Part shown: positions 9,296 to 11,038 of the stretch, piece by piece
Layout of the letters: every line of letters starts with the position of its first letter
Position numbering within the stretch: position 1 is the first letter of the stretch
From: an uncultured Sporosarcina sp.
GTDB taxonomy: Bacteria > Bacillota > Bacilli > Bacillales_A > Planococcaceae
Direction: 5' to 3'
Assembly (NCBI GenBank): GCA_947644645.1
Contig: CANSAF010000021.1
Coordinates: forward strand, 1 to 39,949
Length of the DNA: 39,949 nt
Translations under genes and position numbers: made by a program
Notes under the pieces: model-generated
What the model was told of the DNA's origin: nothing
Seen by the model: the letters and a program-made list of their open reading frames with translations, nothing else
The model's database searches: none

Positions 9296-9904
9296 TCAAA
9301 TTCTGTAAGACGGCAACAGTCTTTTTTTATAAAGGAAAGCAATCATATTTAATTGCCACACAGCAATTTTCTTTGGAAAAAAGCGTTTGCGATAATACTG
9401 ATTATAAGCTTTCTTTAAATCATGCCATTGCCTACAATGCTTCCGTTGTCTAAAACGTGCCACGTCAATCATTTTTATTTTGCCATCAGCTGTGATGAAA
9501 ATATTTCGCAAATGAATATCAGATGGGTTAAGCTCTCGATCCCTTGCAAGGGACAATGCAAAATCGATTTCTTTAATATGCGCTCGTGTAATGATTTCCC
9601 CTTGCGCTAAACATTCAAAAAGCGTGAGTCCTTCTATATAATCGATGACGATATAGTTCAATCCGAAGTCATGCATGACTGGATAATAAGGTATATTCTG
9701 CAATATTTTATAAATTTCAGCCTCTTCTTTTGCAATCGAAATAAATGCAGGAAAAAATACTTTAATCGCTCGATTTGATGCATTTATCTTAAAGACGAAA
9801 GCACTTCTCCCCGTCCCAACAAGTTCTAGAGAGTCATCATAGCGAATTAAACGATTTTTCTTGTCGATGACAACTGTATTTGCAAGTGCTTGATAAGATT
9901 TCAA
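9296..9904 (-). CDS. Small protein kinase-like protein (YrzF-like)
   Basis: A 202-residue kinase-fold protein, close to the size of B. subtilis YrzF. Visible parts: glycine-rich loop GTGRSAFVFK (about 31-40), a beta-3 lysine in RAIKVFF, a hinge IVIDYIEG, a catalytic-loop equivalent NPSDIHLRNIFI in which the usual HxD is altered but the Asn is kept, and MIDVARF in place of DFG. It may be an active atypical kinase or a pseudokinase. The start is TTG at 9904, after GGAGGGACAAATT; no better ATG is nearby. Upstream lie two terminators and a manganese riboswitch in the same orientation, so transcription from 10116-10144 should be manganese-dependent. No membrane segment. The substrate is unknown. 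Confidence 0.72.
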   Translation of the reverse strand: MKSYQALANTVVIDKKNRLIRYDDSLELVGTGRSAFVFKINASNRAIKVFFPAFISIAKEEAEIYKILQNIPYYPVMHDFGLNYIVIDYIEGLTLFECLAQGEIITRAHIKEIDFALSLARDRELNPSDIHLRNIFITADGKIKMIDVARFRQRKHCRQWHDLKKAYNQYYRKRFFPKKIAVWQLNMIAFLYKKRLLPSYRI

Positions 9905-9929
9905 AATTTGTCCCTCCAGTCTACAATAT

Positions 9930-9963
9930 AAAAAAACGTGATAACCAATATCTGGTCATCACG
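9930..9963 (-). terminator. Second terminator between the Mn riboswitch and the kinase gene
   Basis: CGTGATAACCA/TGGTCATCACG pair with one G-T wobble, followed by TTTTTTT on the minus strand, ending 26 bases before the start codon. It is distinct from the riboswitch terminator at 9975-10006, so RNA polymerase must pass two terminators. Confidence 0.85.
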
Positions 9964-9974
9964 CCTTGCGGAAT

Positions 9975-10095
9975 AAAAAAGGCCTCACCAAATAAACGGT
10001 AAGGTCTCGCAAACAACAATCGTTGCCAACAAAGCCGAGGGATTCCCCTGTACTGACGACTTTGCTGTATTAGCTACTCCCCTTAAAGGAAGTCA
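9975..10095 (-). promoter_or_regulatory. yybP-ykoY manganese riboswitch with terminator
   Basis: On the minus strand the conserved loop AAGGGGAGTAGC is followed by CAAAGTCGTCAGTAC, CGGCTTTGTTGGCAACG and GCGAGACCTTACC, the arrangement of known Mn2+-sensing yybP-ykoY aptamers. The 3' conserved segment GACCTTACC is also the first arm of a terminator (GACCTTACC/GGTGAGGCC then TTTTTT, 9975-10006). This predicts a manganese-on switch: metal binding locks the aptamer and prevents termination. Confidence 0.9.
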
Positions 10096-10115
10096 AATAT
10101 TCATATTGTATGCTT

Positions 10116-10144
10116 AGTATAAATTGAGACTGGATAAGAGTCAA
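10116..10144 (-). promoter_or_regulatory. Promoter of the Mn riboswitch transcript
   Basis: TTGACT, 17 bases, TATACT on the minus strand, 20 bases upstream of the aptamer. It lies in the gap downstream of the sugar permease genes, so the unit starts independently of them. Confidence 0.82.
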
Positions 10145-10222: not shown

Positions 10223-11038
10223 CTACCCCTTCAATCCCCCCATCGATAAACCTTCCGTAAGCTTCTTTTGCGTCAGCGCATATAATGTAATTGTCGGTAG
10301 TAATACAAGGACAAGTCCTGCAAACAAAGCCGCCCAGTCTGTCGCAAACTTTTGAACTTCCATTAAGTTTGCCAGTCCGACAGGGATTGTTTTCTTTTCA
10401 TCACTCGAAATAAGTACGAGTGCAAGCGCATATTCATTCCAAAAAGTGAAAAAGTTAAATATGATAACCGTTAAAATCCCCGGTCTTGCAAGTGGAAGTA
10501 TAATACTGATAAGCGTCCGAAAATAACTCGATCCATCGATATAAGAAGACTCCTCATATTCACGTGGAATCGATCGCATAAAACCAGTAAGTAAATAAAT
10601 AGAAAATGGTAAAGCACCTGCCGCGTATACTAAACTAAGCCAAAATCGATTGTCTAACATATGAAAATTATTCATCATTAAAAACAAAGGAATCATAATA
10701 TAAACCGGTTGGATAAATAATCCCCCCATATAAATATTATGTAATAATTTACGCCCTTTAAAATCAAATCGAGACAATGCGTAAGATGTAGGGACGACTA
10801 AGAGGAGAAGTAAACACATTGAAAGGCCTGTCACGAAAAACGAGTTTAAAATAAATTCACCCATACTTGATTCAACAAATGCACGCGTGAAGTTACTAAA
10901 ATTCAAGACTTCCGGAATCGACCACGGACTTTCCATAATTTCTGTATTTGTTTTAAATGCCGCAATAATATTCCAAATTAAAGAATAAACAAAAATAAAT
11001 GTGGCAATCAGTAAAACAACTCTTAAAAAGATACGCAT
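10223..11038 (-). CDS. Carbohydrate ABC transporter permease, MalG type (N-terminus possibly frameshifted)
   Basis: A 271-residue inner permease with six membrane helices and the EAA-type loop EYEESSYIDGSSYFRTLISI followed by LPLARPG, typical of the MalG/CUT1 family. It imports sugar together with the MalF-type permease next to it and the lipoprotein upstream. The ATG at 11038 has no good ribosome site. A strong AGGAGG with an ATG seven bases on lies at 11072 but is out of frame. Removing one A from the A6 run at 11062-11067 would fuse this start to the frame and give MGKIIQFKKKTMRIF as N-terminus. So a one-base insertion, real or a sequencing error, is likely. No ATPase gene is adjacent; a shared MsmX-type ATPase elsewhere is expected. 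Confidence 0.82.
   Translation of the reverse strand: MRIFLRVVLLIATFIFVYSLIWNIIAAFKTNTEIMESPWSIPEVLNFSNFTRAFVESSMGEFILNSFFVTGLSMCLLLLLVVPTSYALSRFDFKGRKLLHNIYMGGLFIQPVYIMIPLFLMMNNFHMLDNRFWLSLVYAAGALPFSIYLLTGFMRSIPREYEESSYIDGSSYFRTLISIILPLARPGILTVIIFNFFTFWNEYALALVLISSDEKKTIPVGLANLMEVQKFATDWAALFAGLVLVLLPTITLYALTQKKLTEGLSMGGLKG

Follow-up and report, generated by a model that had tools for sequence, protein, structure and literature searches.

The window, a stretch of 39,949 nucleotides (nt) from a Sporosarcina-type soil bacterium, carries on its minus strand an RNA leader followed by the gene of a small kinase-fold protein. We consider it probable that this leader is an Mn2+ ON switch of the yybP-ykoY class, in which two terminators coupled as a relay control the kinase-fold protein. 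The aptamer, the first terminator (T1), the second terminator (T2), and the kinase gene exist and are largely conserved together. According to the proposed mechanism, strand 1 would pair with strand 2 at low Mn2+, and T1 would halt transcription. Polymerase leaking past T1 would then meet T2 (3:4), which could fold because T1 locks strand 2. At high Mn2+, the docked aptamer would retain strand 1 in its helix P1, so that no T1 would form. The freed strand 2 would pair with strand 3 (anti-T2), T2 would be delayed or prevented, and the kinase gene would be transcribed. The ligand of the window copy is presumably Mn2+; some yybP variants may sense other metals, as stated in excerpts of a published study (PMC7266159).

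The features are listed in Table 1. A consensus scan gave 8 promoter-like sites versus 5.1 ± 2.1 in shuffles, so the single site listed is weak by itself and no proof of function. The leader (9900-10110) folds with a minimum free energy of -74.2 kcal/mol (z = -5.61; 0 of 200 shuffles as low). Between 8800 and 10400, 3 terminator-like sites were found versus 0.9 ± 0.9 in shuffles, the third of them on the plus strand at 10373. Elsewhere on the minus strand, three frames between 12052 and 13520 look like the fragments of one broken solute-binding-protein gene; two permease genes lie beside it.

Table 1. Coordinates of the leader, the kinase-like gene, and further features (window positions unless a locus is named)
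Feature	Position	Strand	Basis
Promoter-like site TTGACT-17 bp-TATACT	10116-10144	-	consensus scan, 10/12 matches
yybP-ykoY (Mn2+ riboswitch) aptamer + T1	9966-10090	-	RF00080, own model R1, helix covariation
Aptamer proper	10090 to ~10000	-	
P1 5' strand UAAGG	10085-10081	-	within aptamer
Aptamer core GGGGAGUAGC	10082-10073	-	within aptamer
Aptamer 3' core GCGAGACC	10010-10003	-	within aptamer
Strand 1 = T1 5' arm	9998-10008	-	sequence, R1 alignment, folds
CCUUA, P1 3' strand and part of strand 1	10004-10000	-	sequence, R1 alignment, folds
Terminator T1	9983-10004; U-tract 9980-9975	-	terminator scan
Strand 2 = T1 3' arm and start of U-tract, UUGGUGAGGCCUU	9979-9991	-	predicted partner of strand 3 once P1 holds strand 1
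Strand 3 = T2 5' arm, AAGGCGUGAUGACCAG	9952-9967	-	terminator scan, pairing analyses
Second terminator T2	9933-9967; U-tract 9936-9930	-	terminator scan; helix with compensatory changes
Ribosome binding site GGAGGG	9912-9917	-	sequence
Kinase-fold gene, 202 aa, TTG start at 9904	9296-9904	-	ORF, weak family matches, invariant catalytic positions
Broken solute-binding-protein ORFs	13520-12681 (PF01547), 12656-12378, 12366-12052	-	
Decayed leader copy	L149:6330-6457	-	R1 46.3 bits
Decayed leader copy	L150:4959-5088		R1 50.7 bits
Decayed leader copy	L151:7055-7179	-	R1 39.9 bits
Decayed leader copy	L153:4100-4219		R1 23.4 bits

The aptamer matched the Rfam model RF00080 at 10089-10011 (minus strand) with 21.4 bits (E = 4.9e-4; cmscan, 401-nt search). 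This is below the Rfam 15 gathering score of 45 bits, which is a database cut-off and no biological feature. A scan of the whole window at the gathering score reported no RNA family. A whole-genome search with RF00080 (E <= 0.001) missed the window copy, and its sole match was another copy in the same genome (C8:3736-3901; L001). The C8 copy (as locus L001, C8:3740-3889) scored 32.1 bits, likewise under the cut-off of 45; the gene after it belongs to the TerC family, and T1 is its only terminator. None of the leaders L001, L048, L166, L173, L191, and L062, three of them directly before TerC, was reported at the gathering score; among 14 control genomes, 2 had a match that reached it. The cut-off of 45 bits seems too strict for this leader group.

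Because the gathering score is silent on these leaders, we built a model of our own (R1) on 30 leaders, among them that of the window. It gives the window 132.6 bits, which is no independent proof, since the window is in the training set. The aptamer structure comprises 6 helices and 24 pairs, with 96.5% of the cells paired and 13 pairs showing changes on both sides (0 of 500 shuffles); the structure tested was derived from the same 30-leader alignment. The motifs GGGGAGUAGC, CGUCA, and GC(G/A)AGACC, which we take to be the conserved core of yybP-ykoY aptamers, are present in the window, and nearly all of their letters are invariant or nearly invariant in the 30 leaders. In four relatives, a decayed second leader copy precedes the kinase leader by ~1.3-1.8 kb (Table 1). 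Core letters are altered in these copies and T1 is still recognisable; the copy in L149 precedes a 144-aa ORF and a DedA-like ORF (named by eye). A PyrR site match (RF00515; 9973-10093, minus strand; E = 2.7) spanning the aptamer and T1 was set aside as terminator resemblance. Excerpts of a Bacillus methanolicus study show a PyrR site annotated beside a yybP-ykoY leader, perhaps by the same resemblance (PMC4342826).

The 3' strand of P1 is shared with the expression platform: in sequence and folds, CCUUA is used by both P1 and T1. The T1 helix is paired in 97.4% of cells in 47 kinase leaders and shows no covariation, as expected if the aptamer fixes its 5' arm. Of the 52 intact kinase leaders, 49 have a called T2, and inspection by eye shows one in the remaining 3. 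Its helix contains 65 cells with changes on both sides (0 of 500 shuffles) or, counted by pairs, 10 pairs (7 of 500 shuffles); the sequences are related, so cell counts and p values, here and below, are not independent events. T2 is a real, conserved helix with compensatory changes. A yybP-ykoY aptamer with its 3' strand in a terminator arm, and a second terminator before the gene, had been put forward in the original prediction, and all of these were found on the minus strand (T2 at 9967-9933). T2 was treated there as an obstacle between switch and gene; the comparison suggests that the same switch has T2 as a second output.

The relay was assessed in a class-level sample of Bacilli leaders. 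This sample was not random: it combined the loci returned by a search (L160-L189) with 60 loci hand-chosen for spread and with L001, L049, L050, and L051. From these 94 loci, L206, L217, L226, and L241 were dropped (no core by pattern) and L175 contributed two rows, which left 91 rows, 89 of them distinct. T2 was called in 49 of the 91 rows by a procedure that overlooks T2s with long loops (L199 and L227 are examples). Genes were classed by short self-written motifs, with one representative each of DUF6376, FbpB, PAP2, Spo0M, DUF1232, and TerC confirmed by Pfam; T2 was called before DUF1232 (7/7), Spo0M-like (3/3), kinase (3/3), FbpB-like (5/6), lipoprotein (4/5), unclassed (8/12), TerC (19/54), and DedA (0/1) genes. 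DUF1232-type genes directly follow Mn2+-type leaders at L181, L186, L190, L195, L219, L225, L230, and L048, the last being an eighth case outside the 7/7 count.

In 47 of the 49, pairing is possible between the 5' arm of T2 and the 3' arm of T1 (at least 7 of 8 positions complementary, a count with no null of its own), and the four strands can form either 1:2 + 3:4 (off) or P1 + 2:3 (on). The predicted 2:3 energy for 44 leaders from other Bacilli was -13.8 kcal/mol versus -6.1 when other terminators took the place of T2 and -6.0 kcal/mol when the arms were shuffled. The p value was <= 0.05 in 35 of the 44 leaders with the terminator null and in 37 with the shuffle null. When strand 3, represented by 8-mers picked to fit 2:3, was exchanged among 52 leaders, the 2:3 mean weakened from -13.48 to -12.28, and 0 of 10000 permutations reached the true mean. 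Across Bacilli, the complementarity of strands 2 and 3 exceeds what the nulls allow. Covariation of 2:3 was modest. Alignment A3, which holds 40 of the 52 swap-test leaders (without L048, L143, L166, L193, L197, L202, L215, L223, L216, L222, L232, and L242), gave 7 cells (57/500) and 4 pairs (36/500). Alignment A4, with 47 of 53 leaders (without L013, L093, L107, L126, L130, and L133), gave 5 cells (2/500) and 2 pairs (82/500). The 2:3 pairing was not convincing in L216, L222, and L242.

A point against the relay is that a copy of T1 would give a strand 3 resembling strand 1, and such a strand matches strand 2 without any function. In L137 and L191, strand 3 (8-mers picked for 2:3) is a better match to strand 2 than strand 1 is. 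Ten leaders had no called first terminator, and in five of them (L177, L198, L212, L225, and L248) the first hairpin was judged by eye to have no U-tract; L103, L135, L143, L200, and L242 were set aside from this count for a T-rich tail or a long loop. Without a first U-tract, T2 would be the only terminator, and the aptamer would have to reach it by some route, for example 2:3. The swap test argues for selection on the 2:3 pairing, as do loci like L137 and L191 and the leaders lacking a U-tract in the first hairpin.

Kinase leaders gave a weaker signal. The mean 2:3 energy in 61 of them was -9.2 versus -5.3, and all 61 lay below their own terminator-null mean; p <= 0.05 was reached by 7 of 61 against terminators and by 27 of 61 against shuffles. 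One compensatory case for 2:3 is the window itself, with GCCUU/AAGGC in place of the GUCUU/GAGAC of most relatives. A swap test within 55 kinase leaders was weak (own, -9.10; swapped, -8.68; median rank, 0.46). The window itself has a 2:3 energy of -8.4, which was not significant against other terminators (-5.7; p = 0.15) or the shuffled arm (-7.7; p = 0.35). The support for the putative relay is thus comparative and does not come from the window alone.

Moreover, T2 is more stable than 2:3 at equilibrium in all 61 kinase leaders (in the window, -19.5 versus -9.0) and in 36 of the 44 class-level leaders. With T2 favored at equilibrium, the relay must be kinetic and needs timing. In prefix folds of the window with strand 1 held, 2:3 was the minimum up to transcript index 80, partial T2 appeared from 83, and full T2 at 89, the T2 stem ending at index 77; these folds assume 10 nt inside the polymerase and are minimum-energy snapshots, not a kinetic simulation. 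In the proposed relay, 2:3 would form in time during transcription. Full-length minima in the absence of Mn2+ were obtained for 7 leaders. The window and three others adopted 1:2 + 3:4, as the model says, and L191, L187, and L248 adopted 1:4 enclosing 2:3 instead.

These energies bear on a rival explanation, by which Mn2+ acts on T1 only and T2 is an uncoupled back-up that lowers the leak, the kinase being weakly expressed at best. The greater stability of T2 over anti-T2 in 61 of 61 kinase leaders and the nonsignificant 2:3 of the window agree with it. So do the start codons: in 50 intact order-level kinase leaders with a readable start, the kinase begins with TTG in 44, GTG in 4, and ATG in 2, which suggests low translation. 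Against an uncoupled T2 stand the class-level complementarity and the swap test, the leaders whose first hairpin has no U-tract, and the conserved blocks in the T2 5' arm. Of the 65 compensatory cells of T2, 48 lie in columns 52-57 of this arm, and there is hardly any change in the columns that would face strand 2 (48, 49, 51, 60, and 61). Counting against the relay, columns 53 and 54, which are paired in the tested 2:3 structure too, are among the most variable. The G-U pairs of kinase-type T2s have G on the 5' side in 85 cases and on the 3' side in 22 (150:125 in 213 other terminators), which favors the relay; the absence of this asymmetry in class-level T2s (24:31) counts against it. Weighing both sides, we regard the uncoupled back-up as unlikely, if a credible competitor.

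An improbable explanation is that T2 answers a second signal, protein or RNA, which would make the leader a gate with two inputs, Mn2+ being the one read at T1. It would suit the strong conservation of T2 and its sequence, which is unlike that of T1 in the Sporosarcina kind. However, no known RNA family was found at threshold in the window, a threshold that misses the aptamer too, and the class-level T2 repeats the T1 arm, pointing to strand 2 as the partner.

Returning to the Mn2+-controlled relay, we analyzed its target. A Pfam search of the 202-aa ORF at E <= 0.001 gave no match. PF00069 matched at E = 0.0027 with 17.6 bits, under its cut-off of 31.7 bits, and two NCBIfam kinase models matched at E = 1.7e-5 and 7.2e-5, both far under their own cut-offs. 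In an alignment of 20 sequences that contains the window's own, four residues (K48, D129, N134, and D147) never change; D129 and N134 sit in the motif S-D-I-H-L-R-N. We take K48 to be the catalytic Lys, D129/N134 the Asp/Asn loop, and D147 the metal-binding Asp. The window protein may be an active kinase that serves metal homeostasis.

Aptamer and kinase were then followed across genomes. Among 25 genomes of the same genus, a close kinase was present in 16, and the leader DNA match adjoined it in 16 of 16. The other 9 had neither a close kinase nor a leader match; three of these 9 had only weak, remote kinase matches, and one was an 83% complete genome. At the order level, a close kinase was found in 65 of 261 genomes. 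An intact aptamer core lies 170-524 nt upstream (median 187) in 52 of the 65, and two more (L080 and L101) have the variant core GAGGAGUAGC with matching GAGAUCUUACC, i.e., with the matching change in P1. The aptamer is thus kept before the close kinase in 54 of 65 genomes. In the remaining 11, the leader is lost or present as remnants; several retain pieces of T1 or T2, which points to decay in place.

Outside the order, the aptamer was present within 1.2 kb in 9 of 19 kinase loci examined and absent in 10. The class-level search returned 66 kinase genomes, and loci were taken for the best 30; L018 and L019, the only two inspected from the other 36, had no aptamer within 700 nt. None was found by the kinase in L021 and L064. 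Of the five named loci outside Sporosarcina and Psychrobacillus (L060-L064), four have an aptamer, L064 being the exception. Remote kinase relatives (28.7-38.7% identity) had 0 aptamers within 700 nt in 15 sampled loci (L110-L124), of which L111 offered only 111 nt for inspection; L020 (34% identity) does have an aptamer. In other families, small genes lie between aptamer and kinase, with FbpB (PF13040), DUF6376 (PF19903), Spo0M (PF07070), and PAP2 (PF01569) as representatives. Of the ORFs listed between aptamer and kinase in relatives, none was recognised as an exporter. As judged from these genomes, the aptamer-kinase link is old and common, not universal.

The idea that the exporter once controlled by this riboswitch is gone, that a short RNA is now made instead, and that the kinase is a chance neighbor would accommodate two terminators ahead of the gene and decayed leaders in some relatives, but we rejected it as highly implausible, because aptamer and kinase occur together in 54 of 65 genomes with no recognised exporter in the interval and are jointly absent in 9 of 9 same-genus genomes lacking a close kinase. 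The original prediction had called the next gene kinase-fold, with which the weak kinase-model matches and the invariant catalytic positions agree. It had offered two alternatives for the locus, that the aptamer controls this gene or that its target was lost. The conserved linkage favors the former; the latter is not supported, as an exporter in the interval was sought in close relatives and not found.

Beyond the kinase, we see about an even chance that many Mn2+ riboswitches of Bacilli are relays of this kind, with a single aptamer and two chained terminators. Such leaders would need no second aptamer for a tight OFF state and would control TerC as well as small kinase, FbpB-like, Spo0M-like, DUF1232, and DUF6376 genes, i.e., a wider manganese regulon. 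If this is true, a well-studied riboswitch class has an output device in which one sensor releases two stop signals in sequence. The apparent absence of tandem Mn2+ riboswitches would gain a testable explanation, and manganese would be linked to the kinase-like protein and to several others whose function is unknown. Among the matches listed from the open literature (titles and abstract starts, with the founding papers outside this scope), none described a kinase target or chained terminators for the yybP-ykoY class. One sensor releasing two terminators in sequence does not appear in the excerpts of nine papers (PMC10898510, PMC2965389, PMC11087558, PMC4342826, PMC4205851, PMC10448178, PMC7266159, PMC9481103, and PMC9495176).

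Several known systems share parts of the proposed design. The TerC-linked yybP-ykoY Mn2+ riboswitch, e.g., the C8 copy, has the same aptamer core and P1/T1 switch as the window. Unlike the window, the C8 copy has T1 only, whereas the window has a kinase-fold target and a second terminator. In trp-type attenuators, four strands form 1:2 and 3:4 or, alternatively, 2:3, and a ribosome on the leader peptide is the sensor. The window leader would share this logic, but its sensor would be a metal-binding aptamer that holds strand 1, and its 1:2 is itself a terminator. The yybP-ykoY riboswitch of Lactococcus lactis is described in excerpts as an ON switch acting by antitermination, a further likeness to the window (PMC11087558). 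In the rimP-leader of Gammaproteobacteria, a second terminator in tandem and a potential antiterminator are likewise found in one leader; in contrast to the window, the extra terminator lies upstream, and the excerpts name no ligand aptamer (PMC2965389). Finally, a review of tandem riboswitches notes, in the excerpts, a surprising lack of tandem arrangements among over 5,000 Mn2+ riboswitches (PMC9481103). Tandem riboswitches resemble the window in having more than one checkpoint along one leader and differ from it in that the window combines one aptamer with two chained terminators.
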